IMG/VR virus record: IMGVR_UViG_3300010042_000011
Location: 1-48,074 of that record
DNA from: a virus
DNA: 48,074 bases
Strand: one strand, 5' to 3'
Notes under the pieces: generated by a model
The model's database searches: none
Seen by the model: only the letters and a program-made list of their open reading frames with translations
Told to the model about the DNA's origin: nothing
Translations under genes and position numbers: made by a program
In this document: one piece after another, positions 1 to 48,074 of the stretch
Numbering within the stretch: the stretch's first letter is position 1
Layout: every line of letters starts with the position of its first letter

Positions 1-791
1 ACGGCATCAAACAACTTGGGGTCAAGTTCTTCCGCCTGAATGCCGCCAAACAGCGTACCGAAAATCTGCAAGACTTCGTTCGACCAACTGGCCGGGTCAT
101 AGCAGTTGGTACGGAGCCATGAGTTATCGGCAAAATGAACCGTCAATGTCTGCCAATTGGAATGCAGACCAAAGCCCACAGGCACCTTGCCGGTCTTGGC
201 CAGCGCCGTTGCGAACACCTTGGGGACGACAACACCAATCGGCATTCCGTTCCCGTGGTACGCCTCAATGACCGTCACGCCATCGGTAGCCATGACGGTT
301 TCGCCGTTAAGGCGAATGGACGCGCCAAGAACGGTTTCGGCATTGTCGGACACCACCTTGCCAGCGGCAACCAATGCGTCAATGAACTTCTGCCCGTCTG
401 CAAGTGGCCACTGGTTCAAGTCCGGGTACGTTTCCGGCACGGTTGTCGGGTCGAGTGCCGGGACTAGGGCTTCGTACTTATCCGACTGGATATGAAGCGC
501 CCCGGTGCCGGTAACCGACATGGTGAAAGTCTTGGACGTGTTGTCCAGTGCATCGGCAAACAGCTTGGTATGCACGTAACCGGCAATCTCGCCGGTGATC
601 GGGTGGCCCATGGCTAGTACGCCATCGGTGCCGATAGCCCAGCCGCCGTTAAGAAACGTGTGTTCCATGTACGGCATAAGCTGTTGTCCGGTCGGGGGCT
701 TCAATGCCCCCATGAAGTTCAACGCGGCGATAAGGCCAGCGGCCATTTCGCTTTTAGCGGGCTTACGCCCCCGGCCTGTTCTCGGTGCCAT
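1..791 (-). CDS. DNA sliding clamp-like protein, N-terminal part (cut by window edge)
   Basis: The ATG at 791 follows GAAAGGAA; 263 codons are read before the window ends. I infer a DnaN-like processivity clamp from internal repetition: two successive units each have a helix with an AL pair, a beta strand ending in TDG (residues about 55-57 and 169-171), a hydrophobic strand pair and a second helix (LFADAL near 77-82, VFATAL near 192-197). This is the order of strands and helices in beta-clamp domains. The HIQSDKYEALVPALDP segment resembles the end of DnaN domain 1. The third unit is at the other end of the window (47404-48074, same strand). It lies directly downstream of the helicase and upstream of the DNA polymerase, a fitting place for a processivity factor. 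No close family was recognised, so the call rests on pattern and context. Confidence 0.66.
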   Translation of the reverse strand, partial: MAPRTGRGRKPAKSEMAAGLIAALNFMGALKPPTGQQLMPYMEHTFLNGGWAIGTDGVLAMGHPITGEIAGYVHTKLFADALDNTSKTFTMSVTGTGALHIQSDKYEALVPALDPTTVPETYPDLNQWPLADGQKFIDALVAAGKVVSDNAETVLGASIRLNGETVMATDGVTVIEAYHGNGMPIGVVVPKVFATALAKTGKVPVGFGLHSNWQTLTVHFADNSWLRTNCYDPASWSNEVLQIFGTLFGGIQAEELDPKLFDA

Positions 792-803
792 TGTCAGTTC
801 CTT

Positions 804-2510
804 TCACTCGTATTCATATTGATGGATTTCGGGATACGGCTTCTTGTTAACGTGTACCATGATCCGCCTTGGTTCTTTCAGCCATTGGCGGTTGGCGTAA
901 GGCAAGGCTTGGTCAACGGACGGGGGCAGGTTGTCCGGGTGTTCTGGGTTCTCGACTTTAAACCGGGCGGCCCACCACCCTTTAGCCTTGTGCAACAAGA
1001 ACCCGTCGCTGCCAAGGAATACCAAATCTGTGAACTTCCTTTTACCTGACCAGTAGCTTACCAGCAAGAACGGCTTACCGGAAGGCCCAACCTTCTTTTC
1101 GTAAAAGACATGGCTAATGTCAAACCATTGCATTTGCGGGGCATCGTTGGCTTGCACGTCTACCGTGTAACTGGTTTCCGCAAACTTAACGGCGAAATTA
1201 AACGGTGCCCCGCATACCTCGCAATTCTTGGCGGACGGATGGTTGTAGTTCCCGCACCCGGTATAACCTTGGTGCAGCTTCTTGGTCTCGCATATCTTGA
1301 TGGGCGGGTCACCCGTGCCCTGCCCCTTCCGCTCGGGCAACACCGGGTCATTGATCGGCCCGAGCCGGGAAGCATTACCGGCGAAATCCAGTACCAGACA
1401 ATCCAGCTTGCCCCCGTTCTGCATTGCCCAAAGGCGGCCCTCTAGGGTGTCAAGAATTGACCTGTGGGCACCCCCCAACACGTAATAGGGCCGGACGCCG
1501 CGACCGAGTATCTGGACCCATAGCGCCGGGGAAATGGTGGCGCGAAGGATGGCCATAAGGTCAATTTGGTCATCGTCAAAGCCGGTGGTCAGAACGTTAT
1601 TGTTGACGATAGCCCGGTATTTACCGGCCTTGTAATCGGCAATGCGCTTATCGCGTTCCTTGGCCGGTATCTTGGAATGAACAACGGTTGTCGGAATGCC
1701 AAGCAAGTTTAGCTGGTCACAAATATGCTCGGCATGGGCGATGCCGGTAGCAAAGATCAGCCATTTACGGCGGTTCTGGCCGTAATATAAGATTTCCTGT
1801 ATGGCCTGATAGGTGATGGCCGCTTGGTCAAACGCTTTGGCGGCTTCCGTCTGGTTATAGTCGTTGTCCGATACCCCGACACCGGACAGGTCTACCTTGG
1901 TCGCAGTTGGCCGGGTGATTAGCCGGGTAAGATAGCCTTGCTGGATAAACCAGTTAAAGGCGTCAACCCCGGTCATATCAACAATCTTGTCCTGAAAGAT
2001 TGTTCCCTCAATGATGCTACCCAGTCCGAGCCGCCACCAAGTAGCGGTTGAACCGATGACCCGTAAAAACGGGTTCATTTCCAACAACTGGTCAATGATC
2101 TTCATATACATGCCTTCACTCAACGGATTGAGTAACTGGCATTCATCAATGAACAGTAGGTCTTGTCTGCCGAAATCCTTAATCACCTTATGGACCGATG
2201 CAACACCGCCCCAAGTGATTTGCATTTCCATGTTCCGTTTGCCGAGACCGGCGGAATAGATACCAAGGGGCGCTTGGGGCCATGCCTCAACCAGCTTATT
2301 GACGTTCTGTTGGATTAGTTCCTTGACGTGAACCAGCCCCATCAACCGGGACTGGGGCCGGTATGACAGCGCCCGCCGCATTATGTTCGCCTGTACGTGC
2401 GACTTGCCTACCCCTGTCGGGTAAGCCAGCACGCCGCCCAAACTGGTTGAGTTGTTCAACCAATTGAAGGTTTGGTCTTCGCCGTATGTCTGATAGTCGC
2501 GAACGCTCAT
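804..2510 (-). CDS. Superfamily 2 DNA helicase (DEAD/DEAH-like) with C-terminal zinc ribbon
   Basis: This is a 568-residue helicase that probably unwinds DNA at the phage fork or during recombination. The start chosen is the ATG at 2510, because it overlaps the upstream stop as ATGA; an in-frame ATG 33 bases further upstream exists but lies deeper inside that gene. Visible motifs are Walker A (YPTGVGKS), Walker B (LLFIDECQLL), motif III (GSTATW), and motif VI (QILGRGVRP). After the helicase core there is a four-cysteine cluster (C in KICET, then GCG and CEVCG) that looks like a zinc ribbon. Its neighbours are the Cas4-like nuclease upstream and the clamp downstream, all in one minus-strand operon. 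RadD/SSL2-type helicases have the same layout. Confidence 0.88.
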   Translation of the reverse strand: MSVRDYQTYGEDQTFNWLNNSTSLGGVLAYPTGVGKSHVQANIMRRALSYRPQSRLMGLVHVKELIQQNVNKLVEAWPQAPLGIYSAGLGKRNMEMQITWGGVASVHKVIKDFGRQDLLFIDECQLLNPLSEGMYMKIIDQLLEMNPFLRVIGSTATWWRLGLGSIIEGTIFQDKIVDMTGVDAFNWFIQQGYLTRLITRPTATKVDLSGVGVSDNDYNQTEAAKAFDQAAITYQAIQEILYYGQNRRKWLIFATGIAHAEHICDQLNLLGIPTTVVHSKIPAKERDKRIADYKAGKYRAIVNNNVLTTGFDDDQIDLMAILRATISPALWVQILGRGVRPYYVLGGAHRSILDTLEGRLWAMQNGGKLDCLVLDFAGNASRLGPINDPVLPERKGQGTGDPPIKICETKKLHQGYTGCGNYNHPSAKNCEVCGAPFNFAVKFAETSYTVDVQANDAPQMQWFDISHVFYEKKVGPSGKPFLLVSYWSGKRKFTDLVFLGSDGFLLHKAKGWWAARFKVENPEHPDNLPPSVDQALPYANRQWLKEPRRIMVHVNKKPYPEIHQYEYE

Positions 2511-3385: not shown

Positions 3386-3397
3386 AGGTAACCCCAG

Positions 3398-3426
3398 ACA
3401 AAAAGAGGGCGCGGCGAACCGCGCCC
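3398..3426 (-). terminator. Intrinsic terminator (minus strand) with UUCG tetraloop
   Basis: Read on the minus strand, GGGCGCGG-TTCG-CCGCGCCC forms a perfect 8-bp stem with the very stable TTCG loop, followed by TCTTTTT. It lies between the SSB gene stop (3466) and the nuclease start (3385). It would reduce transcription of nuclease, helicase, clamp and polymerase relative to SSB and the annealing ATPase. Confidence 0.88.
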
Positions 3427-3465
3427 CAAGTTACCGCTAGAGGAACGCCCTAACGGGGTATTGTG

Positions 3466-4389: not shown

Positions 4390-4392
4390 GAC

Positions 4393-5965: not shown

Positions 5966-6205
5966 ATGACGCCCACCCCATATAGTAGCCCCCTGCTGGC
6001 CTGTGTACAAAGGCTTGTGCTAGAGCGGCCTGCCAACCTCTTGCTGCGCGATCTAGCCGCTGAAATGGGCGTAACGCCTGTCTGGCTCGGCGGCTTCGCC
6101 AACGGCAAATATGACAACCCGTCTGCGGTCGTCATCGAAAAACTTTACACCCGGCTTACCGGCAACCAGTTGGTCAATACCTGTGTTCCACAATCTACCG
6201 AATGA
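5966..6205 (+). CDS. Small HTH (XRE-like) DNA-binding protein
   Basis: This 79-residue protein starts at the ATG at 5966 (MTPTPYSSPLLACVQ). The segment LRDLAAEMGVTPVWLGGFANGKYDNPSAVVIEKLYTRLTG has the helix-turn-helix spacing of Cro/C1-type regulators: a first helix, the AAEMGVT turn, and a recognition helix. It lies next to the divergent promoter region with a 21-bp spaced direct repeat, so autoregulation and control of the replication operon are reasonable inferences. The 3' end overlaps the primase start. A possible longer reading frame begins at 5804, but that would cover the whole promoter region and is rejected. Confidence 0.72.
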   Translation: MTPTPYSSPLLACVQRLVLERPANLLLRDLAAEMGVTPVWLGGFANGKYDNPSAVVIEKLYTRLTGNQLVNTCVPQSTE

Positions 6206-8609
6206 GTTACGGGCTTACCCGCATTGGGTAGTTTGGAAGCTAGAGACCCTTGAGAATGGGCGGACCACTAAGGTTCCCTATTCGCCTATCCATGGTGGCC
6301 GTGCCAGTTCAACGAACCCACAACATTGGGGAACGTTTGAACAGGTGTTGGCCCTCTATAATGACGGCAATAACGTCTATGGGTATTCCGGCATCGGGTA
6401 CATGATAAACGACGTTGACCCGTTCTGCTTTATCGACTTTGACGACCCCTATAAGAAACACCCGGATGGTTCGCCCGTGAATGCGGACCCGGCTGGTATC
6501 GCCCGCGTGCAACTCGATATCTATAATCGGTTCCGTGGCACCTATATGGAGATATCGCAGTCCGGCAAAGGTCTCCACATTATCAGCCTTGGCCTTACGC
6601 CCAAGGGTAAGCATGTCGCGGCTGTCGAAATGTACAGTCATGCGCGGCTTATGGTGGTCACTGGCAACGTTTACGAAGCCGCGCCCATCACCGATAAACA
6701 AGAGGCCATCAACTGGCTGTATACCGAGCTAACTAGCGCGGAAAAGGTGGTTGGGTACACCGGCACCTTTGAAGACGTTCACGACGACCAGACCGTTATT
6801 AACAAGTGCCTTGCTGCGGCCAATGGTCAGAAGTTCCGCGACCTAGCTAACGGTGACTGGCAACAGTATTATGGCAGTCAGTCGGAAGCCGATTTCGCGC
6901 TTATTGATATCCTTGCCTATTTCACGGAAAGCCGTTTCCAGATCGCCCGCATATTCCGGCTGTCGGCACTCGGTCAGCGTGATAAGGCCGCCCGTGACGC
7001 TTACGTGTTCGGCATGGTGGACAAGGCCTTTGACCTTCACCCGCCGCCGCTGGACATGGACGGTGTTAAGGCCGCGCTAGATGCTGAATGGGCTAAGGTG
7101 GCCGGGGTCGGTACTGGTCAGGGTCGGGATATGAACCCCCCTAATGTTCCTCAAGCGCCCGGCCTGCCGCCCCCTGTCTCGCCAACTGGGGACGACGCAC
7201 CCAGATATACATTCGTTGAAGACGAAGACAACCCCTATCGTAAGCCGGTCCCCGGCCTTCTGGGGCAGATCGCCTACTATATCTATGCGCAGGCCCCGCG
7301 CCCGGTGCCCGAGATAGCCCTTGCCGGTGCCATTGGCCTGATGGCCGGTATCTGTGGGCGGGCCTATAACGTGTCCGGCACCGGCCTCAACCAGTACACC
7401 CTGTTGTTGGCCCGGACGGGTCGCGGCAAGGAAGCCATTAATTCGGGCATGTCCAAGCTGATGAATGCCGTTTGTCTGGTTGGCGATGGTGGCGGTAACT
7501 GCCCCGGCGCTCGGGAGTTTGTTGGCCCAACCACTATTTCCAGTGGTCAAGCCTTGGTGAAGCATCTGGACAAGGGTTCCAAGTCCTTTGTGTCGGTGTT
7601 GGGTGAAGTCGATCTTACGCTAAAGAACATGACTTCCCGGAATGCGAATGCCGGTCTTGTGGCACTCAAGCAAACCATGTTGCGGGCTTATTCGGCGTCC
7701 GGTCGTGGCGAGACCTTGGGCCAGACCATCTATTCCGACAAGGACAAGAATACGTCCGAAATCATTAGCCCGGCATTCTCGATTGTGGGTGAAGGCACCC
7801 CGGCCCGGTTTTACGCCATGCTTGACGAAGACCTTGTTGCCGATGGTCTGTTGCCGCGCTTTACGATCATTGAATATAACGGTGATCGCGTGCCCCTGAA
7901 TATCGAACGCGCCAACGTCCAGCCATCCCCACAATTGGTACACGCCGTTGCCCAGCTATGCGGTTACGCCCTAATGTTGAACCAGCAGTCAAAGCCGGTT
8001 GACGTACAGTTGACCGACGAAGCGCAGGCATTTCTACACCATTTCGACCTTACGGTTGATGGCATAATGAACAAGGCCGACAATGACGTAATCGACCAGC
8101 TTTGGAACCGGGCTTATCTCAAGGCCGCCAAACTGGCTTCGCTTATCGCAATCGGTATCAACATGACTAATCCGGTCATCACATTGGAGTTGGCCGAATA
8201 CGCGGTAACGATGGTGAAGCGTGATACGTCCCGTCTGGTTGCCCGGTTTGTTACCGGGGATATCGGTGACGGCGTGTCCAAACAAATGCTTGATATGAAA
8301 AAGGCATTCCAAGGCGCAATGCGTTTGTCGGACAAGCGTTGCCACTCGCTCGGGATGACTTGGCAGATGCAACAGGACCGGCTTATCCCTAAGCGTTACA
8401 TTATGCAGGCTTTAACGAATATCGCTTCATACAAGAATGCTAAGGAAGGAATGAACCGCGCGCTGGAAAGTCATATCCGGTCACTGTTGGACGCGGGTTT
8501 CATTCAACAGGTTGGTGCTACCCAGCTTGCGACTTACGGGAAGTCAGCCGGGGTCTATTACGTGGTGACTAATCCGGCTTGGCTTATCGGTGGTGTCGAG
8601 GATAATTGA
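6183..8609 (+). CDS. Primase-polymerase/helicase fusion protein
   Basis: This protein of about 808 residues should prime and unwind at the phage origin. The N-terminus (NELRAYPHWVVWKLE, TKVPYSP, GYMINDVDPFCFIDFDD) is typical of phage prim-pol domains, with the DFDD acidic cluster as probable metal site. The C-terminal half resembles DUF3987-type helicases: PGLLGQIAYYIY, a Walker-A-like LARTGRGKEAI (TGRGKE rather than GKS/T), and a probable Walker B/sensor segment FVSVLGEVDLT. The start is uncertain. I chose GTG at 6183, where similarity-like sequence begins and overlap with the HTH gene is 23 bases; an ATG at 6111 would add 24 residues. The candidate origin follows immediately. Confidence 0.84.
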   Translation: MFHNLPNELRAYPHWVVWKLETLENGRTTKVPYSPIHGGRASSTNPQHWGTFEQVLALYNDGNNVYGYSGIGYMINDVDPFCFIDFDDPYKKHPDGSPVNADPAGIARVQLDIYNRFRGTYMEISQSGKGLHIISLGLTPKGKHVAAVEMYSHARLMVVTGNVYEAAPITDKQEAINWLYTELTSAEKVVGYTGTFEDVHDDQTVINKCLAAANGQKFRDLANGDWQQYYGSQSEADFALIDILAYFTESRFQIARIFRLSALGQRDKAARDAYVFGMVDKAFDLHPPPLDMDGVKAALDAEWAKVAGVGTGQGRDMNPPNVPQAPGLPPPVSPTGDDAPRYTFVEDEDNPYRKPVPGLLGQIAYYIYAQAPRPVPEIALAGAIGLMAGICGRAYNVSGTGLNQYTLLLARTGRGKEAINSGMSKLMNAVCLVGDGGGNCPGAREFVGPTTISSGQALVKHLDKGSKSFVSVLGEVDLTLKNMTSRNANAGLVALKQTMLRAYSASGRGETLGQTIYSDKDKNTSEIISPAFSIVGEGTPARFYAMLDEDLVADGLLPRFTIIEYNGDRVPLNIERANVQPSPQLVHAVAQLCGYALMLNQQSKPVDVQLTDEAQAFLHHFDLTVDGIMNKADNDVIDQLWNRAYLKAAKLASLIAIGINMTNPVITLELAEYAVTMVKRDTSRLVARFVTGDIGDGVSKQMLDMKKAFQGAMRLSDKRCHSLGMTWQMQQDRLIPKRYIMQALTNIASYKNAKEGMNRALESHIRSLLDAGFIQQVGATQLATYGKSAGVYYVVTNPAWLIGGVEDN

Positions 8610-9038: not shown

Positions 9039-9042
9039 CCTG

Positions 9043-13260: not shown

Positions 13261-13521
13261 ATGTCCGAAGCCTCAAGCATGGCCGCTGCGGCCCGTATGA
13301 CCAGCCTGTTTGTGCCGGTCGATTGGGTGCCGCTTACGCCGGGCGTGGACGCGCTTACCCACCCAATCCGGGCAATCCGTGCTAATGGTGGCGGCAACGT
13401 GACCGTGACAACGGCATCTGGTGAAAGCCGCGTTATGGCGTTCTCCGATGGCGAAACCCGCATGATTGCCGCGACCCACATAACCGCTGCCACGGCGTCC
13501 GGGCTGGAAGGCGCGGTCTAA
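13261..13521 (+). CDS. Putative spike/fibre base protein (86 aa)
   Basis: The product MSEASSMAAAARMTSLFVPVDW includes TPGVDALTHPIRAIRANGGGNVTVTTASGESRVMAFSDGE, which resembles small beta-rich spike-base proteins found in alphaproteobacterial phages and gene transfer agents. That resemblance is by pattern only. It overlaps the next fibre gene by one base (TAATG) and is the first gene of a tail-fibre cassette. Its ribosome site lies in a hairpin stem, so translation may be restricted. Confidence 0.6.
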   Translation: MSEASSMAAAARMTSLFVPVDWVPLTPGVDALTHPIRAIRANGGGNVTVTTASGESRVMAFSDGETRMIAATHITAATASGLEGAV

Positions 13522-14231
13522 TGCAGTTCGGCCTTAACTTCTCATTCGGTGGACAGGCTACCGCTGCCCGCGCCCCGGACGACGGGGTTAAGCGCCTGCG
13601 GGGGTTCATACAGGGCGGCGGTATCGTTGTCGGCAGTATCCGTAAGGCCCCCGTCACCCTGTCAGGTGCAATCGGTGCTGGCGGGATTGTCTCGGGCGAT
13701 ATCCGCATTGTATCCCGGTCGCTGGCCGGTACGATCATTGCAGGGGGAACGGTCGTCGGGGCTATGCAGGCCCCGGCTAACGACCTGTCCGGCGTCGTCC
13801 AAAGTGGTGGCGCACTATCGGGCAACCTGAAAGTCTCTAGGCGTCTTGCCGGGTCAATTGGCGCTGGGGGCACTGTGTCCGGCGAACTGGCCAGCACTGC
13901 CCCGGTCACGCGGCTACTTAGCGGTGCGGTCTCGGGCGGCGGCTCGATTGTGGGCACGGTAGTTTCGCGCCGTACTCTTGCCGCTACCGTTACCGCTGGT
14001 GGCACTGTTACCGGCAACCTTGTCGCCTCTAAGCGCCTTGCTGGTGTCGTGGCATTGGGTGGCACGGTAACAGGCAATCTCAAAGTTTCGCGTCGTCTGG
14101 CTGGCGTCATTGCTGCCGGGGGAACTCTTACCGGCAATCTGGTTGTCGGGGCTACGTCTAACCGTCTTCTGAAAGAAGACAACAGTTATGCCCTTCTGGA
14201 AAGCGGCGACAAAATCTTGCTTGAGGTATAA
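13521..14231 (+). CDS. Tail fibre-like protein built from Gly-rich repeats
   Basis: This 236-residue protein consists mainly of about seven or eight repeats of 20-24 residues with the pattern L(A/S)G-x-I/V-x-(A/G)GG-T-V-x-G-N/D/E, for example LAGSIGAGGTVSGEL and LAGVIAAGGTLTGNL. Regular Gly-rich strands of this length suggest a beta-solenoid. The C-terminus LLKEDNSYALLESGDKILLEV resembles the tip motif of small phage fibre proteins. The same repeat occurs in the large tail-tip protein at 39447-45104. Its neighbours are other fibre-like genes. It is probably an accessory fibre on the tail or capsid. Confidence 0.72.
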   Translation: MQFGLNFSFGGQATAARAPDDGVKRLRGFIQGGGIVVGSIRKAPVTLSGAIGAGGIVSGDIRIVSRSLAGTIIAGGTVVGAMQAPANDLSGVVQSGGALSGNLKVSRRLAGSIGAGGTVSGELASTAPVTRLLSGAVSGGGSIVGTVVSRRTLAATVTAGGTVTGNLVASKRLAGVVALGGTVTGNLKVSRRLAGVIAAGGTLTGNLVVGATSNRLLKEDNSYALLESGDKILLEV

Positions 14232-15457: not shown

Positions 15458-15821
15458 GCAGCGCCGGGCACTGATGCCCCGACCCACTGCCAAGATCGGC
15501 GGTTGGCTTACCCCTACCCCCAAGTCGCCAATCGGTGAAATCACTGCAACCCCGGCTACGCGCGCCCCAAAGCCTGCCCGCCTTGGTGGCAAGGACAACA
15601 ACCCGCTTGGCATCGGGAAGCCCCTGCCGAAGGACGCTTACCCGGAAGTCCCGCGCGAAGTGTTCGGGCGTCACGTCCAGACTGTGGGCCGTGCCATTCG
15701 CCCCGGCCACAAACACCCCGGCGATACCCAGAACTTGGCGACCGAACCACTGGGGGCCGGTGTCTCGCGTATCCTGTCCCGTGGCCTGAAAAGGCCGGTC
15801 CGGTATCCGTTCGGTGGCTAA
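15444..15821 (+). CDS. Hypothetical basic, Pro-rich protein (125 aa)
   Basis: Starts MVNRKQRRALMPRPTAKIGG. The whole protein is rich in Pro, Arg, Lys and Gly with little predicted secondary structure, so it may be largely disordered. No recognised family. It overlaps the GcrA-like gene by eight bases, which suggests co-expression. Confidence 0.58.
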   Translation: MVNRKQRRALMPRPTAKIGGWLTPTPKSPIGEITATPATRAPKPARLGGKDNNPLGIGKPLPKDAYPEVPREVFGRHVQTVGRAIRPGHKHPGDTQNLATEPLGAGVSRILSRGLKRPVRYPFGG

Positions 15822-16275
15822 GGGCCGGACAGGTCGCCCCGGATGGACAGACGCGGCGACCAAAAGTCTTTGGGGCATGTACCTCAAGGGCCTAAGCTAT
15901 GTGGAAATGGCTGCGGCGCTTGGCGTGACCAAGAACGCCGTAGCTGGCCGGATAGGTCGCCTGCGAGAAGCCGAACGCAAGAAACGGGAAGCTGCGGGCG
16001 TACCTAAACCCCGGCTTCCCAAGAAGCCCCGCAAGTCGTATACCCTGCGGTTCAAGAAGATCAGTCCGGCGAACCACGCCCATCCCCTGTTTCGCCGCAT
16101 TATCGTTCTGATGAATGAACACCAGATATCCCGGCGGGCACTCTGCAAGAGGGTCGGGATATCGGAACAGACGTTCGACAACTACCGGACGCGCGACACG
16201 CCTAAGCTGACCGTTATTGAAGCCATGTACAACGTGTTCGGTAAGACCCTTGCCGAGACAGACATAGAGGATTAG
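15814..16275 (+). CDS. GcrA-like HTH fused to XRE-like HTH
   Basis: Residues about 7-52 (GRPGWTDAATKSLWGMYLKG, then LSYVEMAAALGVTKNAVAGRIGRL) match the N-terminal DNA-binding helix-turn-helix of GcrA, the alphaproteobacterial cell-cycle regulator that acts with RNA polymerase at CcrM-methylated GANTC promoters. A Lys/Arg/Pro linker follows. Residues about 95-150 (RRIIVLMNEHQISRRALCKR, then VGISEQTFDNYR) form a second, XRE-type helix-turn-helix. Typical GcrA has a sigma-binding C-terminus instead. The fusion suggests a phage regulator that uses GcrA-like recognition for late or host promoters. The start overlaps the upstream gene by eight bases. Confidence 0.72.
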   Translation: MAKGRTGRPGWTDAATKSLWGMYLKGLSYVEMAAALGVTKNAVAGRIGRLREAERKKREAAGVPKPRLPKKPRKSYTLRFKKISPANHAHPLFRRIIVLMNEHQISRRALCKRVGISEQTFDNYRTRDTPKLTVIEAMYNVFGKTLAETDIED

Positions 16276-18410: not shown

Positions 18411-18585
18411 CGAAGGGCGGTTGCTGCGGGCCGTGCTGGACTACCAGATTACCCATGCGTCCCGCGCCAACGCGATTACCCTAAGCAAGGCTATTGAAGA
18501 CGGGTTTATCTATGCCACGTCCTACGGTAACCTGACCATCACCAAGGAAGGCCGGGAACGGCTCGGCGAACTAGAGGATAAGTGA
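18388..18585 (+). CDS. Hypothetical protein, possible winged helix (65 aa)
   Basis: Starts MTPTIQTSEGRLLRAVLDYQ and overlaps the Spo11-like gene by 23 bases. The order helix, helix, strand pair (YATSYGNLTITKEGRERLGEL) resembles a small winged-helix domain. No recognised family. It could be a DNA-binding partner, by position only. Confidence 0.58.
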   Translation: MTPTIQTSEGRLLRAVLDYQITHASRANAITLSKAIEDGFIYATSYGNLTITKEGRERLGELEDK

Positions 18586-18587
18586 CC

Positions 18588-29397: not shown

Positions 29398-30357
29398 ATG
29401 GGCCTTTCCGATTTTGAAGTCTTCACCGAATTTACCTACACCGCCGCGACGGAAGTTCTGCGCCAGCAGATCGACCTTTTCAACGCTGCCACCGCCGGGG
29501 CTATCGTCCTGCGGGCGGCTGCTAACGTCGGCGACTACACGGACAGCACCTTCTACGCGAAGGTTGCCGACCTTGTACGCCGCCGTAACGTCTACGGTTC
29601 CGGCGACGTGACGGAGAAGGAACTTTCCATGCTGACCGAAACGTCGGTCAAGGTCGCAGCGGGCACGCCGCCCGTTCGCGTCGATCCGGCATGGTGGACT
29701 TGGATACAGCGCAACCCGGAAGAAGGCGGCGTCATCTATGGCAAGCAGCTTGCCGTCGATATGATGGCCGATATGCTGAACACGGCAATCATGGCGGGCG
29801 TTGCTGCCCTGTCCAACGTTGCCGGTGTCATCAATGACGCTTCCGCTGGCACCGCCGACTTTGGCGACCTGCTTGGCGGTGCTGCCAAGTTCGGCGACCA
29901 GTCGCAGGCTATCCGCGTCTGGATTTCCCATTCCAAGGTCATGTTTGACATTTGGGGCGTTGCTCTTGCGAACAACGCAAGCCTGTTCTCGTTCGGAACC
30001 ATCAACGTCCGTCAGGACGGCTTTGGCCGCCCTATCGTCATCACTGACAGCCCGTCGCTGGTCAACCTGACACCCAACCCCGACGTTTACCGGACCCTTG
30101 GTCTGGTGTCCGGCGGCATCATGGTCGAGCAGAACAACGATTTCGACCAGAACGTTGAAACGTCCAACGGCAGCGAAAACATCAAGCGGACTATTCAGTC
30201 CGAATGGACCTACAACCTGTCCGTCAAGGGCTTTGCTTGGGACAAGTCGTCCGGCGGTCATTCTCCGAATGACGCGGCTATCGCGTCGTCGGCGAACTGG
30301 GACAAGATCGTCACCAGCAACAAAGACCTTGCCGGTGTTATGGTCCTGACCCAGTAA
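29398..30357 (+). CDS. Major capsid protein
   Basis: This 319-residue protein starts MGLSDFEVFTEFTYTAATEV after CAGGGGATAACAGGCC, a strong ribosome site. Length, position after the scaffold, and codon use biased to C-ending codons all suggest a highly expressed HK97-fold capsid protein. Segments such as RVWISHSKVMFDIWGVALAN and FGRPIVITDSPSLV are typical of the P- and A-domain strands in phage capsid proteins. A pair of hairpins lies directly after the stop. Confidence 0.9.
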   Translation: MGLSDFEVFTEFTYTAATEVLRQQIDLFNAATAGAIVLRAAANVGDYTDSTFYAKVADLVRRRNVYGSGDVTEKELSMLTETSVKVAAGTPPVRVDPAWWTWIQRNPEEGGVIYGKQLAVDMMADMLNTAIMAGVAALSNVAGVINDASAGTADFGDLLGGAAKFGDQSQAIRVWISHSKVMFDIWGVALANNASLFSFGTINVRQDGFGRPIVITDSPSLVNLTPNPDVYRTLGLVSGGIMVEQNNDFDQNVETSNGSENIKRTIQSEWTYNLSVKGFAWDKSSGGHSPNDAAIASSANWDKIVTSNKDLAGVMVLTQ

Positions 30358-39127: not shown

Positions 39128-39129
39128 CC

Positions 39130-39447: not shown

Positions 39448-42400
39448 TGACCGAGGGCAAATGGACAGGCGGCACAACGACCGTTTATAACGATCCTATC
39501 CAAGATGCCCGGTTGGATAACCTTGAACATCAAACCGGCATTCCTAACACGCCCATAGGATACCGTACCGAACGGATCGAGACCACAGAACCGCCGGTCT
39601 GGGAATATTACGCCACGTTCGTTGTGTCGTTCGGCGAACGTGTTGCCAAGCCCGGCACCCATGTTGAGGTTGCCCGCCTGTGGGCTAATGATATCATCAT
39701 CTATGACCGTTCGGCCAGCTTCACCGCCCCGGCCATCGCTAACACGTCTTACCCATGGGGCCGCTCGGTAATCAATACCGAGCTTGGCGGCGGTATCAAC
39801 CCTTTGCCGGTAGAGGCTCAACGGTCGTTTGGTTTCCAGTTCTTTGACGGCAGCGAAGACCAAGGCCCCGTCTTCCGGGGTATGCACTATCGCGGCCTGA
39901 TGACAGGTCGGTTTACCGACTTTAATGTTACCGAGTACGGCAATTCCATTCCGACCATCACGGCGGAACTTATCGACATTGTAGACGGGTCCGAAACCAA
40001 CGACGCCGGGGATATGTTCTACCGGCGCATGGTCGAGGCGTACACGGCAGAAATACGGTCCGACTTTGATGCCCTGTACCGCGTCCACGTCACGGAACAG
40101 GGGGTCTATGTAGACAAGGCCCGGTTGTCCACCAAGGCGCAAAGTTTTGGTGTCCGGCTTATGGGTGATCCGTCTTCGCCATCTTATGAGACTATTGCCG
40201 ACCCGGATACCGTGTTTACGTTTATCCCCGAAATGAATGCCGCTTTCACGCAAGGCAATGATAATACATTCAAGAAACGCTTGTATGACCTGACCAGTGG
40301 TAAGGTAACTGCATATCTGGAATGGGAAACCTGCCAAGTCTTTATGCCCTTCCCGGTAACGGCTGGCGGGTTTAAAGATTTCTTCGTGTTCTGCGGTTCT
40401 GTAGAGGAAGTCTATGCCGGTGAATGGCCCATCGGTATTATGGTCGTCCGGCCCGGCTCAATCAATTACGGCTGGATTGACAACTTCACCACCAGCGCCA
40501 TGGTCGGGGCCGTTGTCGGCCCCCAGAACGACGGGTCAACCAGCTTGTTTGTGGCCACTGCAAACGGCGTTGAAGAACTGGTTGTGAAGTCTGCGGGCAG
40601 CGATACAACCCACAGTCCCGTTGGCGTGGCCGTGACCCGTTCTGTGTTCTATACGGCTGGCGTTGACGGCGACGTGGTACAGGTTTGGTATGATGCCGCC
40701 CGTAACCGGGTAATCGTCTTGACGGACGCCGGGAAGGTCATTGCGCTGGACGCGGCGACCAAGGTTACCGCTTGGGCGGTCTCGGGCGTCACCCTGCCCG
40801 GCGCGAAGACCGCCCGCACCAAGACGGCGGAAGCCCTGTCCAACCTTGCAGGGGGCACCCTTGTCCTGTCGCAGGCCGGAAGCTCAACCGAGGTAACCAG
40901 CATTGACTTGGTGGCCGGAACAAAGACGGATATCACGGTCCCCGACAACGACACGGTAACCGAGCTTGGCCCGCTGTTCTGGGAAAGCTCAAGCAAGGCC
41001 CTTTACGGGGCCGGTTCGCCGTATGTCGTCCTTGGTATGGTGCCGAGCGTTAGCGATGATCCGAACCGTTATAACGCTGCCGAGGTTATGCGCGCCTATT
41101 CTATCCGGGCCGGTTACACCGACATGGACATTGCAACCTTCGGCATGGATGACATGTACGTTGACGGTTACATTGCCAGCGGCCCGGTGTCGCTCCAAAT
41201 GATCGCCAATGGCCTGTCGCAGCTTTACGGGTTCAACTGGTCCGAACGTGCCGGTACGATCACCTATAAGAACAGCTATGTTGACGGCGTTCTTAACATC
41301 GACGCCACGGCCCCGGCTGACCGTCTGGCTAACCTGACCGATGGCCAGAACAGCCAGCATTTTAATGTTGAGCGGCTGGCAAGCCAAGACTTTCCGTCTG
41401 TCCTATCGTTGACCTACTTTGACGGGGATAACGGGTACAAGCGCGGTTACAACGAAGTTCCCGGCCCGCTTGACAACTTCGGCGCGGTCCGTTCGGACAT
41501 GTCGTTGCCCCTGACCATTGATGCCGAGTACGCGCAAGAACTGTTGTTCGCGGCCATGTACAGAATGTGGGCAAATCAGGTTGAATACCAAATCCGGCTT
41601 CCGTCCGAATTTATCATTTTGGAAGTCGGCGACGTGCTGGTGTTCACGGCAGACAATACGACGTATACCGGCCTGCTAGATCGTCACCGGATCAACGCGG
41701 ATAACAGCGTTAGCCTTACCGTGTCCGAACCGCCACAAGCCCAGTACCCCATTCGCGTGCCGGTACAGCCCACAGTGAAGGTGCCCAGCAAGGCAGCGAT
41801 GCCCATTAGGGCCGTGTTGCTCGATATCCCGGACCGTACCGCCGGACAAAACCGTCCGGGCGTGGTCAACCTTCTTGTCCTTATGTCTGGCTATGTTCCT
41901 GACAGCTTCCGGGGCGGTCTGCTGGACCTGTCCCGTGGAACCGGCGAATGGGGCGAAGCCTTGGCATTCGGTGCTGCCGAAGAAGGCTATATTGGCTATC
42001 TGACCGAAGACTTAGGCGATTGGGCGTATCCGTTTGAAACGGACACCTACAACAGCCTGTATGTGGACGCCGGTACGATCCCGGCGGCCAAGTTCGTCAA
42101 TGCCACGGAAGGCCAGCTTGACGACGGCGCGAACGTCGTGGCGCTCGGTGAAGGCTCGGCGGTTGAGCTTGTCCAGTTTGCCAACGCCGACAACGTCGGC
42201 GGCAATATCTGGCGTTTGTGGAACCTACGCCGGGGCCGGTTCGGGACGGAGCTTTACAGCGGCGTATGGTCGGAAGGTGCAACCCTGTCGTTCCTTGATA
42301 ACGCCAAGGTCGTCAATATGGTGTTTCCCGACGTTGAAAGCGGGAACAATGATTTACTGTACCGGGCGTACATGGCGAAGCAGCCAGTTTGGCAAGCCGA

Positions 42401-45104
42401 TGTAAATTCCCTTACGGTCGAGTATAACAGCCGTAAGCCGTATGCCCCGGTCAACATCACGGTACGCCGTAACCCGAGCAATGACAGCTTGCGCATTGAG
42501 TGGACCCGCCGCACGCGGTTTCTCAATTCGCCGTCTACCCCGTTCGATACCACCTATTCGCTGGACGAAACGGCGGAAGAATTTGAAATCAATATCGTTA
42601 CCAACAGCGGCGTAAGGGTGCTGCGGTCAGATACCGATTTCGCGATCTATACCGCAAGCGAGCAAACAAGTGACGGGCTTTCGCTGACCGATACCGACAT
42701 TGAACTTGCCATTTACCAGATCAGCGCGGACACGGTTGGCCGGGGCTTTGGTGCATGGCAAGAACTGCCAATCTATGCCCTCAATGCGGCGGTATTGGGT
42801 GGCAAGATTTCGGCCAATGGTAACGTGTCCGGCAACGTCCGGGCAGTGACCAACCTTGCCGGAACGATCAGCGCCGGGGGCGCGATTGACGGGCACTTCG
42901 CCGAAGTCGTGGCCGTTGAACTGTCCGGCTCGATTGCTGGCACTGGCACCCTGTCCGGCGCGTTCCGTGCCATGCCCCTGACCGGCTCCATTGTGGGCGG
43001 TGGTGCCCTGTCGGGGACGATCCCAGCCTATGTGTTGTTGGCGGGCGTGATCGTTGGCGGCGGTGCGGTGTCCGGGCGCGTGGCGTACCTTGATTTTGCT
43101 GGTGCGGTCGCTGGTGGGGGTTCCCTGTCGGGTGCCGTCGTGGTGCGCCGTGATCTTGGGGGCGCTGTCAGCGGTGGCGGTGCCGTCATTGGCGCGATCA
43201 CCACGCCCGCTGTAACGCTGTCCGGGACCATCGGTGCCGGTGGTGCGCTTATGGGTAACATGGCGGACCCAGTGGCCCCGGTTGAGCTTTCCGGCGTCAT
43301 TGGTGGCGGCGGCGTATTGACTGGCGAGATTGGCGAACCAGTCATGGCATTCCGTTATCTGCGGCTGCTGTTTACGGGGTCTTACACGTCCTATATTGCC
43401 GCCCATGAAATCGCATTCCGCGACGCAATGGACGTTGATATTAGGCCGGTTGATAACAACGCTACGTATGTCACGGCAAGTTCAAGCTATAGCCCATCTT
43501 ACCCGCCGACCAACGCCTTTAACCTGACCACTGGCGGCAATCCATGGGAGTGCGCTTCTGGGGACGTTAACGGCTGGATCAAGATTGACACAGGCGGGGC
43601 ATACGAACCGACCCGCGTTGTCTACACCAATGGCCCGTTCTTTAGTGAGATTGCAACCGGCTTTATGGTGCAAGGCTCCAACGATGACACGACTTGGACA
43701 ACCCTTTGGGAAGTGACCGGAAACCCGAACACTGTTAATGCGGTCAGCACCTATGATAAGCCGAACTTTATCAAGTTGCGCGGGGCTGTCGGTGCGGGTG
43801 GTGAAGTGTCTGGCGACATGGCACCACCAAATGACGGCATCACCGGCACCATTGGTGGCGGCGGTGCTGTCGGCGGTGATATGGCTTTCCCGACACCGAT
43901 TGAGCCGCCGGAAGGTCCGACCCGTTTCTGGCGTATTCTGGTTGACCAGACCCAGAATGTTGGTGACGCTTACGTTTGCATTGGCGAATTTGAAATGTCG
44001 GTTGTTACCGGCACGCCCATGGACGGCAGCGACGAAACGACCGGCAAGACGGTCCTGTTTAGTAGCGAGTATACGACCGGCGGGTTTGGTGGCGATGCTA
44101 TCAACGCGATTAACAATACATACGGTGATGCTGGTCCGATCTTCTCGGCAGGAACCGCATGGTTGAGCTTTGGCGGAACTGGTGCCGGGCAGTATATTGG
44201 CGTTGACTTCGGCGCAGGAACCGAGCGCGACATTCGCGAGGTTCGTATCCTTGCCAACCATACCAATGACCGTTCAATCAAGGACGGGCGTATCCAGCGG
44301 TCTAGCAACGGCGTCCACTGGTTTGATGTATGGACACTGCCCACACAGTCGGCTTGGACCATGGGCGAATGGCGCACCTTTACCCGGTCGTTCCCGGAAC
44401 CCGAGGGCAACCCGGACATTGGGGATACCAACACCGGGGGGACCACTACCCCAACCGTTCATAGCGTTAGCTCGGGAGAGTTTACCGGAACGTCAGCAGT
44501 TCTAGACACCCCGGCGGAACTTGCTGCCGGTGACTTGCTGGTCTTCATATCGGACGCTGACCGCAGCAATTCCGGGATGGAAGGTTGGTCCCGGTCCGGC
44601 CCTAACAGTATCCCCGGTTGGATACGCTACCGCCTCGCAACCAGCGACGACGCCGCCGGGGCAACGATCACGATTAACGGAATGAACGGGGGACCGGACA
44701 CGCATTTCGCGGCGCTGCTTTGCATCCGGGGCGTGGACCTGACAACGCCGGTCATCGGTTCACAAGAACTGTATGAACTGTTTGACTATAACATAGGGAC
44801 CGCAACGGACACCCCGTCCGTAAGCATCGCCGGGCCTAACCGTATGCTGCTGGGTATCAACGTCCTGTATGGCGAGTATATGTCATCGGGTGCCACGGTC
44901 ACCGGGTACAGCGGTTCCGGTCTGGCGGAACAGGTGGACCACGTTATTGACGGGTCGGACCGCCCCAGCGCAAGCAGCCGGTTCGCATCCCTGTACGTCG
45001 GCAGCAAGGTTGTAAACGCCGGGCTACACAACACCACCATAACGGCGGCTGGCAGCGGGTCCGGGGCCGCCCTCAATACCACCTACGTTATCAAGGGGGC
45101 TTGA
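39447..45104 (+). CDS. Giant tail-tip/central fibre protein with Gly-rich repeats and discoidin-like domains (1885 aa)
   Basis: Residues about 1-1080 correspond to the hub and receptor-binding base of gene-transfer-agent/siphophage tail-tip proteins (GMHYRGLMTGRFTDFNVTEY, AYAQELLFAAMYRMWANQVE-like hub segment, RLPSEFIILEVGDVLVF). Residues about 1115-1300 hold eight or nine Gly-rich repeats, for example LTGSIVGGGALSGTIP. Residues about 1300-1448 and 1490-1645 look like two F5/8 (discoidin) carbohydrate-binding domains, with AFNLTTGGNPWECASGD and QGSNDDTTWTTLW in the first. More repeats lie between them. The last 230 residues are a separate beta-rich domain. It should contact the host receptor, perhaps a glycan. 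Confidence 0.85.
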   Translation: MTEGKWTGGTTTVYNDPIQDARLDNLEHQTGIPNTPIGYRTERIETTEPPVWEYYATFVVSFGERVAKPGTHVEVARLWANDIIIYDRSASFTAPAIANTSYPWGRSVINTELGGGINPLPVEAQRSFGFQFFDGSEDQGPVFRGMHYRGLMTGRFTDFNVTEYGNSIPTITAELIDIVDGSETNDAGDMFYRRMVEAYTAEIRSDFDALYRVHVTEQGVYVDKARLSTKAQSFGVRLMGDPSSPSYETIADPDTVFTFIPEMNAAFTQGNDNTFKKRLYDLTSGKVTAYLEWETCQVFMPFPVTAGGFKDFFVFCGSVEEVYAGEWPIGIMVVRPGSINYGWIDNFTTSAMVGAVVGPQNDGSTSLFVATANGVEELVVKSAGSDTTHSPVGVAVTRSVFYTAGVDGDVVQVWYDAARNRVIVLTDAGKVIALDAATKVTAWAVSGVTLPGAKTARTKTAEALSNLAGGTLVLSQAGSSTEVTSIDLVAGTKTDITVPDNDTVTELGPLFWESSSKALYGAGSPYVVLGMVPSVSDDPNRYNAAEVMRAYSIRAGYTDMDIATFGMDDMYVDGYIASGPVSLQMIANGLSQLYGFNWSERAGTITYKNSYVDGVLNIDATAPADRLANLTDGQNSQHFNVERLASQDFPSVLSLTYFDGDNGYKRGYNEVPGPLDNFGAVRSDMSLPLTIDAEYAQELLFAAMYRMWANQVEYQIRLPSEFIILEVGDVLVFTADNTTYTGLLDRHRINADNSVSLTVSEPPQAQYPIRVPVQPTVKVPSKAAMPIRAVLLDIPDRTAGQNRPGVVNLLVLMSGYVPDSFRGGLLDLSRGTGEWGEALAFGAAEEGYIGYLTEDLGDWAYPFETDTYNSLYVDAGTIPAAKFVNATEGQLDDGANVVALGEGSAVELVQFANADNVGGNIWRLWNLRRGRFGTELYSGVWSEGATLSFLDNAKVVNMVFPDVESGNNDLLYRAYMAKQPVWQADVNSLTVEYNSRKPYAPVNITVRRNPSNDSLRIEWTRRTRFLNSPSTPFDTTYSLDETAEEFEINIVTNSGVRVLRSDTDFAIYTASEQTSDGLSLTDTDIELAIYQISADTVGRGFGAWQELPIYALNAAVLGGKISANGNVSGNVRAVTNLAGTISAGGAIDGHFAEVVAVELSGSIAGTGTLSGAFRAMPLTGSIVGGGALSGTIPAYVLLAGVIVGGGAVSGRVAYLDFAGAVAGGGSLSGAVVVRRDLGGAVSGGGAVIGAITTPAVTLSGTIGAGGALMGNMADPVAPVELSGVIGGGGVLTGEIGEPVMAFRYLRLLFTGSYTSYIAAHEIAFRDAMDVDIRPVDNNATYVTASSSYSPSYPPTNAFNLTTGGNPWECASGDVNGWIKIDTGGAYEPTRVVYTNGPFFSEIATGFMVQGSNDDTTWTTLWEVTGNPNTVNAVSTYDKPNFIKLRGAVGAGGEVSGDMAPPNDGITGTIGGGGAVGGDMAFPTPIEPPEGPTRFWRILVDQTQNVGDAYVCIGEFEMSVVTGTPMDGSDETTGKTVLFSSEYTTGGFGGDAINAINNTYGDAGPIFSAGTAWLSFGGTGAGQYIGVDFGAGTERDIREVRILANHTNDRSIKDGRIQRSSNGVHWFDVWTLPTQSAWTMGEWRTFTRSFPEPEGNPDIGDTNTGGTTTPTVHSVSSGEFTGTSAVLDTPAELAAGDLLVFISDADRSNSGMEGWSRSGPNSIPGWIRYRLATSDDAAGATITINGMNGGPDTHFAALLCIRGVDLTTPVIGSQELYELFDYNIGTATDTPSVSIAGPNRMLLGINVLYGEYMSSGATVTGYSGSGLAEQVDHVIDGSDRPSASSRFASLYVGSKVVNAGLHNTTITAAGSGSGAALNTTYVIKGA

Positions 45105-45306: not shown

Positions 45307-47400
45307 TTAGTCAGCGGTGCCCCAGTTCGGGCCGGTGGTAGCGTCCACCTTAACGGGAATGGACAAACGGACAGCGTTTTCCATTGTGTGTTTAATGAAC
45401 CGGAACGCCTCTTGCATTAACGGGCTATCGTCAATGACGGACCAGTCTAATTCGTCATGCACGGTCAGGCGCGGAACGCCCGTGTAATCGAATACGCCGC
45501 TGTTCCAACAGTCCAGCATTCCCCGTTTCATAATGTCCGGTTCGCTGCCCTGAAACTTGTAGTTCACGGCCCGATAGAGAAACGCCAACTGGATAAACGA
45601 ACCATAATGCGCCAAAGCCTGTTCATAGGGCAGTGCCGGGCCTTTTTCACGGCCTTTCGTGAACCCGCGTTGCTCCCATAGGTTGAAGCGAATACGGCGG
45701 CCTAGCAGGGTCGTGACATACCCACACTGTTCCGCTTCGTTGGCAATCGCTTGCATAGTCTCCCGGACGTATGGCGCACCGGAATGGTAGGCCATGAAAA
45801 AGCCCTTAGCTTTCTCGATTGGCATACCGAGCTTATAGGAAAGGCTTTTCTCTGACTGGCCATAGAGTAGCCCAAAATTGGTATTCTTGATGGGGCGGCG
45901 GTTCATGGTTATCGCTTCGGACTGCTTGTCCATGTTCGCGATCCGGTTGCCGTCCATCACATAATTGGTATCCCAGCCCATAAGCGGGGCAACGTTCTGG
46001 TAAACGTTGAAATGATAATCCATGTCTGGGTCATCAATGTACGACCGGCGTAGCCGTTCCGCCGAGCCGTCGCCGTTGTCCACGGCGTTATGCGCCAGAA
46101 TGCGATAATGGATTTGGCTATAGTCGTGCTTACGCCAGTGCGAATGTCCGGGGTCCGGCTTGAAGGCCTTGCGAACGCGCTTACCCAGCTTAGTACGGCT
46201 GGGAATGTTCTGCCCGTTCGGGTCCGACATGGAGAAGCGGCCAACCATCGTTCCGTTGCTTTCGCCCTTTAGCGGGTGAATGACCGGGTACAGGTAGCCC
46301 TTAACGTTCTTGTCGATAAGGTACGACTTTAGGAACGTGCCCTTAATCTTCTCATGCTCCCGGATATCGTGCAACAGGTTGCCGACCGGGTGTTCTAGCG
46401 CCTCTAGCCATTCCTTTTCGATCTTAGGCGACCCGTTCGGCTGGGTCGGGGTTGGCTTGTTCCGGGGGTAGCTTACCCCCAGATGATCCAACAACTTGCC
46501 TATCTGGCGGCTGTCGCTGCTTTCGTCGCCCTTGGTATTGACCAGCCTATACCCAAACTCGTGTTCAATCTGTTGGTACAGGCGTGCAATATCGCCGTCC
46601 ATTTCGACGTACATAGCTTCCGCATATGGAACGTCAACGAACACCCCGGCCATACGCATTTTTATCAGCATCGGCAAAAGCCCATGCTCTAGGTCATAGA
46701 TAGTACCAAGGTCTTGCTCGGCGATGATCGGCCATTGTTGCTTGATGACACGAAGCGGCAAATCCGCGTCCGCCTCGCCATACGGGCCAACCAACGACGG
46801 GGGCGCGCGGTATAGTTCTTTCCGCCAGTGCGTTTTAGGCGGCTTATAGGCGTCCATAATCCATTGCTGGACCAGATCAGCCTGTTTGCCCTCGCCAAGG
46901 TACTTGTGGGCCAGAATGTCCAGCCCGACGAATGCGTTATTATCAATGATCGCTTCGGCAAACTGGATATCGTGGAACGGGCCTTTAACCTCAACGCCTT
47001 CTTCGGCAAACCACCCGATATCGTACAACAGGTTTGCGCCGACCTTGGGCTTATCGTTACCGCCAAGGACGTGTTGAGCGTAGCGCAGGCATTGGGTGGC
47101 ATCTAGGTTAAGGTGCCCTTCTACTTCGTGCCGCATAGGGAAATACCATTTTCCGGTATTCCCTAGCCGATCCTCTACCGCCAGCGAATAGCCGACGATA
47201 TGGCCCTTATGTCGTGCCCAGCCCGGACCAGCCTGTTGTAATTCCGGGTCTTTGGTCTCGGTATCAAAGGAAATGATTACGGCAGCGTCAAGGTTCGGAA
47301 ACTCGGTCGGCGGCTTCCACCCGGTTGCAGGAATAGGCGGAAGGGCGCGCAAATGCGCGTCCTTCCTACCGGCTAGATTGACGCCATCAAATAGGCCCAT
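45307..47400 (-). CDS. DNA polymerase, family A, with 3'-5' exonuclease
   Basis: This 697-residue replicative polymerase has an intact proofreading domain: ISFDTETKD (Asp46, Glu48), VGANLLYDIGWF and YGEADADLPL. Polymerase motif A is KHDYSQIHYRIL (Asp426), motif B is RRPIKNTNFGLLYG (Lys505, Phe509) and motif C is VHDEL (Asp649). In motif A most family A enzymes have Glu where this one has His431; that Glu is the steric gate against ribonucleotides in E. coli Pol I. Phe509 aligns with E. coli Phe762. The gene follows the clamp-like gene by three bases, so polymerase and processivity factor are co-expressed. Confidence 0.93.
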   Translation of the reverse strand: MGLFDGVNLAGRKDAHLRALPPIPATGWKPPTEFPNLDAAVIISFDTETKDPELQQAGPGWARHKGHIVGYSLAVEDRLGNTGKWYFPMRHEVEGHLNLDATQCLRYAQHVLGGNDKPKVGANLLYDIGWFAEEGVEVKGPFHDIQFAEAIIDNNAFVGLDILAHKYLGEGKQADLVQQWIMDAYKPPKTHWRKELYRAPPSLVGPYGEADADLPLRVIKQQWPIIAEQDLGTIYDLEHGLLPMLIKMRMAGVFVDVPYAEAMYVEMDGDIARLYQQIEHEFGYRLVNTKGDESSDSRQIGKLLDHLGVSYPRNKPTPTQPNGSPKIEKEWLEALEHPVGNLLHDIREHEKIKGTFLKSYLIDKNVKGYLYPVIHPLKGESNGTMVGRFSMSDPNGQNIPSRTKLGKRVRKAFKPDPGHSHWRKHDYSQIHYRILAHNAVDNGDGSAERLRRSYIDDPDMDYHFNVYQNVAPLMGWDTNYVMDGNRIANMDKQSEAITMNRRPIKNTNFGLLYGQSEKSLSYKLGMPIEKAKGFFMAYHSGAPYVRETMQAIANEAEQCGYVTTLLGRRIRFNLWEQRGFTKGREKGPALPYEQALAHYGSFIQLAFLYRAVNYKFQGSEPDIMKRGMLDCWNSGVFDYTGVPRLTVHDELDWSVIDDSPLMQEAFRFIKHTMENAVRLSIPVKVDATTGPNWGTAD

Positions 47401-47403
47401 TGA

Positions 47404-48074
47404 TTAGCCCTGTTCGCCCGTGTCGGTGCCTTGGTTCGCCGCCAGCCAAGCCCCAATGTCGAAATCGGAAGTTTGGTCCACGTCGTCCACAGTGCGGGTG
47501 TCGGTCTGGATACCGTGCGCCCGGTCATAGTCAGCCTGCCCGGCCAAAAATTCCGGGTCGGTGGCCATGCCCTGTACCGCGCCGGTCAGGCCGGGGCGGA
47601 AGTTCGGGTCCGCAACCGTATGGTCACGCTTGGGCGCTTCGTTGGCATTCCAGCCCTGTGGCGCTTCTTCGGCGGGCGGGGCGACGGTTTGGGCCACGCT
47701 CGGCGTTCCCCAGCCCCCAGCAGCGGCGGCAGGCGCTGGCGTACCCCAACCCCCGGCGGCGGCTTGTGGGCCGCCCCAGTTCGCCGCTGGTGCCTGCGGT
47801 TCCGGCTCGGGAAGCGGGGTCATGGCTGCGATCACGCCCCGGATCAGATCGCCGAAGAAAACCAGCCGGTCGTTACCGTTGCCGTCCGTCGCCACGGCGT
47901 AGGTTTTGGCATGGTCGCGAACGGCCAGCAGACGCTTGCCGGATAGGTCAATCGTGAAATTGATGGTATCGAGCGAAAGCGCCGCGCCCATAGCCTTGTC
48001 GGGATGGGTGCGAACCAGACCGGGCCGAATGATAACCCGGTTATCGTCTTCGGCGAACGGTAGGACGGCGGCCA
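47404..48074 (-). CDS. DNA sliding clamp-like protein, C-terminal part (cut by window edge) with Trp-Gly-rich tail
   Basis: The frame is open to the window edge, so the ATG at 47991 is internal. The first 90 residues (AAVLPFAEDDNRVIIRPGLV, then KAMGAALSLDTINFTIDLSG, LVFFGDLIRGVIAAMTP) form a third clamp-like unit that completes the two units at 1-791. Joining the ends with a one-base overlap gives one frame of 486 codons. After the clamp domain there is a tail of about 130 residues rich in Pro and Ala with WG repeats (GGWGTP twice, NWGGP) and an acidic end (DFDIGAWLAANQGTDTGEQG). Bacterial clamps end at the third domain, so the tail is unusual and may recruit polymerase or SSB. Confidence 0.64.
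   Translation of the reverse strand, partial: AAVLPFAEDDNRVIIRPGLVRTHPDKAMGAALSLDTINFTIDLSGKRLLAVRDHAKTYAVATDGNGNDRLVFFGDLIRGVIAAMTPLPEPEPQAPAANWGGPQAAAGGWGTPAPAAAAGGWGTPSVAQTVAPPAEEAPQGWNANEAPKRDHTVADPNFRPGLTGAVQGMATDPEFLAGQADYDRAHGIQTDTRTVDDVDQTSDFDIGAWLAANQGTDTGEQG

Follow-up and report, generated by a model that had tools for sequence, protein, structure and literature searches.

The question raised by IMG/VR virus record IMGVR_UViG_3300010042_000011, analysed here over its whole length of 48,074 bp (hereafter the window), is why a genome of this size should contain no GANTC, the sequence at which alphaproteobacterial chromosomes are methylated by the cell-cycle methyltransferase CcrM. 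A computed count gives zero copies each of GAATC, GATTC, GAGTC and GACTC on both strands, so that the complete absence noticed by eye in an earlier note on this DNA is exact; GATC, which the note described as frequent, is present in 124 copies. Its expectation of about 188 GANTC sites was too high, as a maximal-order Markov model predicts 85, an order-3 simulation 86 and an order-2 model 107. Even so, the observed zero lies far below every null, Markov or codon-shuffled. When synonymous codons were shuffled in 52 genes (42.1 kb, 300 trials) with the proteins and codon usage held fixed, 74.6 ± 6.4 copies were obtained and the lowest trial had 55. Five-base words that differ from GANTC by one mismatch occur at 0.99 of expectation, and with trinucleotides accounted for the counts are 0 of 80 expected for GAWTC and 0 of 27 for GASTC. 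The loss exceeds the effects of composition and codon use, and the steady selection proposed in the note stands.

A second line of evidence comes from the relatives of the window, which by its gene content is a Septimatrevirus/Titanvirus-like siphophage, tailed and in all likelihood lytic. Five relatives with alphaproteobacterial hosts contain 3 GANTC in sum, against approximately 425 expected: the Sphingomonas phages Kimi (1 of 98 expected) and Eidolon (1 of 89), the Rhodobacter phages RcSpartan (0 of 101) and RcTitan (1 of 88), and the Paracoccus phage PmaS-R3 (0 of 49). All 13 relatives with beta- or gammaproteobacterial hosts (Burkholderia, Variovorax, Achromobacter, Pseudomonas, Stenotrophomonas, Xanthomonas, Escherichia, Acinetobacter, Serratia and Brenneria) keep the site, with 79–193 copies or 0.69–1.15 of expectation. 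Because most of these 13 share with the alphaproteobacterial phages the stripping of hexamer palindromes and CCWGG, the host contrast is specific to GANTC. As established for the classes in general and not strain by strain, the beta and gamma hosts are not known to carry CcrM, an alphaproteobacterial enzyme. On a tree of the head protein (67 rows), parsimony places three origins of GANTC depletion, and every depleted clade contains isolates from alphaproteobacterial hosts and from no other known host. The window falls in the Kimi/Eidolon clade with support of 97/91, and we infer that its host is an alphaproteobacterium, likely of the Sphingomonas order. The connection to CcrM-bearing hosts made in the earlier note is thus borne out within the family, and the contrary evidence that it named, avoidance just as strong among phages whose hosts lack CcrM, was not seen. 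What does not survive is the idea that CcrM would be sufficient: unrelated alphaproteobacterial phages keep GANTC at 0.86 (Ruegeria DSS3phi2), 0.88 (CcrColossus), 0.74 (HTVC010P) and 0.43 (SIO1) of expectation, and therefore CcrM alone cannot be the cause of the loss.

Nor is the loss peculiar to GANTC, as had been supposed. The window genome is purged of many restriction sites, of which GANTC is one among many, and an explanation specific to GANTC falls short, for dozens of further sites have gone as well. Among the 64 hexamer palindromes 27 do not occur, all hexamer palindromes together number 306 compared with 827 expected, and 61 of 182 palindromic enzyme specificities have no site at all. 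The absent hexamers include GCCGGC (56 expected at maximal order, 51 under the synonymous shuffle), CCCGGG (51), ACCGGT (33), GGCGCC (24) and CCGCGG (21). CCWGG is likewise at zero, with 116–133 expected and 124 under the synonymous shuffle. These losses are strikingly sharp: CCSGG is in excess (351 of 297 expected) while CCWGG is at 0 of 116; RGATCY is at 0 of 20 while GATC stands at 124 of 125; and GACN4GTC is at 0 of 18 but GACN5GTC at 22 of 17. Such specificity is a signature of recognition-site removal. GRGCYC is also missing. CCGG, CCATGG, GATATC and TGGCCA are not avoided, with GATC, CCGG, CCATGG and GATATC near or above expectation. If elimination is defined as by Rusinov et al. 2018 (expected count >15, observed/expected <0.1), GANTC (0 of 85–107), CCWGG (0 of 116–133) and about ten hexamers with expectations above 15 are eliminated. 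Other phages lose other words: Pelagibacter phage HTVC010P has 0 of 113 expected CTNAG while mostly keeping GANTC, and six related IMG/VR contigs (L030, L050, L057, L063, L065 and L070) have 0–1 GATC versus 16–34 expected.

The assignment to this phage group deserves some elaboration. The gene set matches that of Septimatrevirus, Titanvirus and Lokivirus, with a helicase, Cas4-like exonuclease, Sak4, single-strand binding protein, primase, polymerase A, terminase, portal, head and tape-measure genes. A homologous portal, head protein, large terminase subunit (TerL) and primase, together with shared replication genes, place the window in the Septimatrevirus-like group; its portal and primase are, respectively, ~51% and 43% identical to those of known phages. 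It does not belong to the genus Septimatrevirus, for which nucleotide identity should be high genome-wide, as positions 1–25000 gave no megablast match. The principal features are as follows.

Positions 1–48074, no strand: whole record, without GANTC, CCWGG, 27 of the 64 palindromic hexamers and numerous further enzyme targets.
Positions 6111–8609, plus strand: primase/helicase, 43% identical to Septimatrevirus primases.
Positions 15814–16275, plus strand: GcrA-like protein of 153 amino acids (aa), with a GcrA-type N-terminal helix-turn-helix (HTH) and a C-terminal Cro/C1 HTH.
Positions 18582–19073, plus strand: VRR-NUC-like nuclease (phrog_824; Pfam VRR_NUC slightly below cut-off).
Positions 24341–26077, plus strand: terminase large subunit (phrog_2).
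Positions 26083–27597, plus strand: portal protein, 50–52% identical to Septimatrevirus portals.
Positions 29398–30357, plus strand: major head protein, the tree marker, grouping with Sphingomonas phages Kimi and Eidolon.
Positions 45307–47400, minus strand: family A DNA polymerase.

Two further observations concern the gene map. ARAGORN reports a tRNA-Ser (tga) at 41998–42095, which is probably a false positive and lies wholly inside the open reading frame (ORF) of an 1885-aa tail protein. Repeated glycine-rich motifs of the type LAGxIxAGGxxSGN occur both in the ORF at 13521–14231, possibly a fibre protein, and at ~42600–43900 in the large tail protein.

The closest relative, contig 3300032004_000011 (G001), allows the history of the sites to be followed. 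Its head protein, terminase and portal are 95%, 89% and 78% identical to those of the window, and the two genomes align over 32 kb at 74% nucleotide identity. G001 contains 122 CCWGG and 10 GANTC, 9 of the latter being GASTC. Among aligned G001 sites, the window keeps 0 of 69 CCWGG and 0 of 6 GANTC, compared with 68 of 130 CCSGG (52%). Two histories would account for the difference in CCWGG: a purge in the lineage of the window once the two had diverged, or a renewed gain in G001. Under both, the abundance of one site changes without a matching change in others, which is what host restriction would predict.

On the host side, CcrM is widespread. Homologues are present in 56 of 60 genomes from the order of a Sphingomonas metagenome-assembled genome, and CcrM-like matches (E < 1e-30) in 87 of 115 alphaproteobacterial genomes. 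Chromosome samples of the likely host order have GANTC at 0.41 of expectation, so that the loss in the phage goes far beyond that of its presumed hosts. A phage-encoded GANTC methyltransferase, as known from alphaproteobacterial phages, was considered and set aside: neither the window nor its relatives have a match to PF05869 or PF01555, the main phage methyltransferase families, other methyltransferase folds not having been searched exhaustively. GANTC is thus removed in this phage and not masked by enzymes of those families.

Candidates for a matching host nuclease were pursued by tracing short CcrM-like methyltransferases from the 115 alphaproteobacterial genomes to their neighbouring genes. 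Two belong to DpnII-type GATC systems, and three pair with a PD-(D/E)XK ORF. The latter form a candidate restriction–modification (R-M) pair in small-genome alphaproteobacteria (L190, 2929–4394; L191; L192, 2770–4104), consisting of the short methyltransferase and an ORF of ~180 aa. A homologue of this ORF in Neisseria gonorrhoeae, 52% identical, also adjoins a CcrM-like methyltransferase, and the specificity of the candidate nuclease is possibly GANTC. Among 398 genomes of the phylum, the matches were either full-length CcrM (at least 57% identity) or a shorter enzyme, with no separate full-length HinfI-like class. A scan of plasmids for HinfI-type methyltransferases gave CcrM of chromids and plasmids, followed by enzymes of at most 45% identity, mostly from other genera.

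The explanation that we favour, and consider probably correct, is that the phage escapes host restriction through the absence of sites. Instead of protecting its DNA, the phage would present no targets, and GANTC would have been lost since the alphaproteobacterial hosts of the family would cleave it when unmethylated, or would often have done so in the past; the purges here and in the other alphaproteobacteria-infecting branches would then be responses to that cleavage. The hosts would accordingly carry a nuclease specific for unmethylated GANTC, which in alphaproteobacteria would be cheap to maintain because CcrM already protects the chromosomes. The all-or-none character of the loss in coding DNA, the same as for CCWGG and the hexamers, favours cleavage. 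The earlier note put forward two candidate mechanisms, a nuclease of HinfI type or evasion of the CcrM/GcrA circuit, and this pattern favours the nuclease as the likelier of the two. More tentatively, there may be a widespread, unrecognised alphaproteobacterial defence that destroys DNA whose GANTC sites lack CcrM methylation, with CcrM doubling as a mark of self. If so, phages would answer it either by deleting GANTC, as in the Septimatrevirus-like family and some pelagiphages, or by encoding their own GANTC methyltransferase.

Several points weigh against cleavage escape. A search of the likely host order, covering one candidate restriction endonuclease family and not R.HinfI, turned up no nuclease for GANTC. 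Across the Sphingomonas order the PD-(D/E)XK nuclease occurs in 0 of 298 genomes, and across the class in 6 of 385; because of this distribution it does not explain the phage and was dismissed as its cause. The host of the window rests on phylogenetic placement. The independent host contrasts number two on supported branches and three on all branches, and therefore a phylogenetically corrected test cannot reach significance. Finally, several non-palindromic words are low in the window too, in part through a depletion of GAG/CTC that is described below.

The alternative that survives best, although we judge it unlikely, does not involve cleavage. CcrM would methylate GANTC in the phage DNA, GcrA would bind there, and transcription of the phage or the host would be mis-set or the circuit titrated. 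Such a scenario fits the tie between GANTC loss and alphaproteobacteria, where CcrM is very common, and the confinement of the loss within the family to phages of CcrM hosts (5 of 5 alphaproteobacterial versus 0 of 13 beta- and gammaproteobacterial, with few independent contrasts). It would also suit the pelagiphages, about half of which are GANTC-poor, as SAR11 has no known R-M system (PMC9516812). On the other hand, a regulatory cost would be expected near promoters, yet coding DNA is cleared on both strands; titration should spare some residual sites; and the loss is not general among phages of CcrM hosts, as illustrated by CcrColossus, DSS3phi2, HTVC010P and SIO1.

The GcrA-like protein bears on the same alternative, since it is encoded by both the window and G001, and phiCbK-like Caulobacter phages also encode GcrA homologues (PMC3556154). 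The protein matches Pfam PF07750 with 43.6 bits (cut-off 26.9) as well as PF13443, and aligns with the DNA-binding domain of GcrA in PDB entries 7ye1 and 5yiu (E ~8e-4), which predicts a GcrA-type DNA-binding HTH. It is not a full-length GcrA: a Cro/C1 HTH occupies the C-terminus in place of the sigma-70-binding region, and the NCBIfam GcrA equivalog model scores 23 bits, far short of its cut-off of 280. Because the gene was found in the window and G001 only, and is missing from the GANTC-depleted Kimi, Eidolon, RcSpartan and PmaS-R3, the protein does not account for the loss.

Two other possibilities are less likely still, both to about the same degree. The first is that the phage is a generalist that meets many hosts and R-M systems, and encountered GANTC restriction by chance in an alphaproteobacterial host with a HinfI-like system. 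The numerous lost sites, partly common to relatives from alpha-, beta- and gammaproteobacterial hosts, would agree with this, as would the stronger hexamer avoidance of broad-host-range plasmids (PMC10359461), but it leaves unexplained why only clades with alphaproteobacterial hosts have lost GANTC. This possibility is compatible with cleavage escape and does not exclude it. The second, for which we see just as little likelihood, is that the absence is a relic of ancient GANTC restriction, inherited by the alphaproteobacteria-infecting clades and under no present selection. The clades are old, and the ten GANTC retained by G001, nearly all GASTC, might be read in this way. However, head-protein divergence among the depleted clades is large, the window has none of the ~107 sites expected, and without selection mutation should have restored sites even over the divergence between the window and G001. 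Bias of composition, codon use or mutation, or chance, can be given almost no credence, because, while the GAG/CTC depletion lowers the expected GASTC in several relatives, such effects are refuted for the window by the synonymous shuffles (75 ± 6) and the neighbouring words at 0.99.

The depletion of GAG/CTC is itself an anomaly that may merit more attention than GANTC. Much of the family, whatever the host class, has hardly any copies of this trinucleotide left. RcSpartan has 5 copies in 44 kb where 853 are expected, and in 11 of its genes that were checked glutamate is encoded by 404 GAA and 0 GAG codons, with 0 CTC. PmaS-R3 has 12 of 775 expected copies, KL1 28 of 758, Eidolon 29 of 856, and Septimatrevirus members 27–32 of ~800; the window stands at 0.44 of expectation, G001 at 0.48, Kimi at 1.12 and T7 at 0.97. 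Many of the copies that survive in phage 73 and PmaS-R3 lie in GGAGT, in contexts resembling ribosome-binding sites. GGAGG, the core Shine-Dalgarno word, is absent from the window (31.8 ± 4.9 under the synonymous shuffle) and from G001. In Kimi, where GAG/CTC is not avoided, CAG/CTG falls to 0.44 of its expected count, which gives the impression that this phage shuns another three-base word instead. Ordinary restriction sites are longer than three bases. A search for a gene-content correlate of GAG/CTC loss found no clean gene, polymerase type included, and literature searches on the avoidance of trinucleotides and on codon use in Septimatrevirus yielded nothing relevant.

Finally, the window can be compared with systems already described. 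The elimination of restriction sites is known in non-temperate DNA phages (Rusinov et al. 2018, PMC6286503), and the window resembles those phages in that sites of orthodox type II, palindromic, are eliminated with no need for a protective methyltransferase. It differs in losing dozens of sites at once and in that GANTC loss follows host class within one family; a further difference is that Rusinov et al. matched their sites to known host enzymes. Its nearest parallel for GANTC is found in the GANTC-poor pelagiphages of SAR11, for which no host nuclease or R-M system has been identified (PMC9516812). There too GANTC is depleted in phages of GANTC-methylating alphaproteobacteria, but those phages, particularly the Autographivirinae, are of other kinds and infect another host order, and the family examined here supplies beta- and gammaproteobacterial relatives as internal controls. 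GANTC methyltransferases, including several that bear no relation to CcrM, are encoded by many alphaproteobacterial phages (PMC5537653, PMC7139368; see also PMC6536676). These enzymes are an alternative answer to the same GANTC threat: selection acts on the state of GANTC in the phage DNA in both cases, and those phages methylate the site where the window phage removes it.

Among its own relatives, the window shares the Cas4-like exonuclease, Sak4, primase, helicase and polymerase with PaMx42, phage 73, RcTitan and Loki, as well as a similar loss of hexamer palindromes (0.31–0.47 of expectation). It is set apart from Septimatrevirus, Titanvirus and Lokivirus by a portal only 46–53% identical, with the genera distinct, and by the retention of GANTC in their members from beta- and gammaproteobacterial hosts. 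A similarity also extends to broad-host-range IncP-1 plasmids, which, according to a passage of Shaw et al. 2023 (PMC10359461) citing earlier work, are without 6-bp palindromes; as far as that passage goes, 6-bp palindromes are stripped and 4-bp palindromes largely kept in both, but the window is a phage and has also fully removed the 5-bp sites GANTC and CCWGG. What is new here is the host-linked, repeated loss of GANTC in one family with internal controls. One phage family spanning alpha-, beta- and gammaproteobacterial hosts, with GANTC lost only in the first, constitutes a natural experiment, and allows a test of whether the CcrM mark, studied as a cell-cycle signal, serves in addition to tell self from non-self DNA. 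In practical terms, GANTC-free phage contigs of this family point to alphaproteobacterial hosts.

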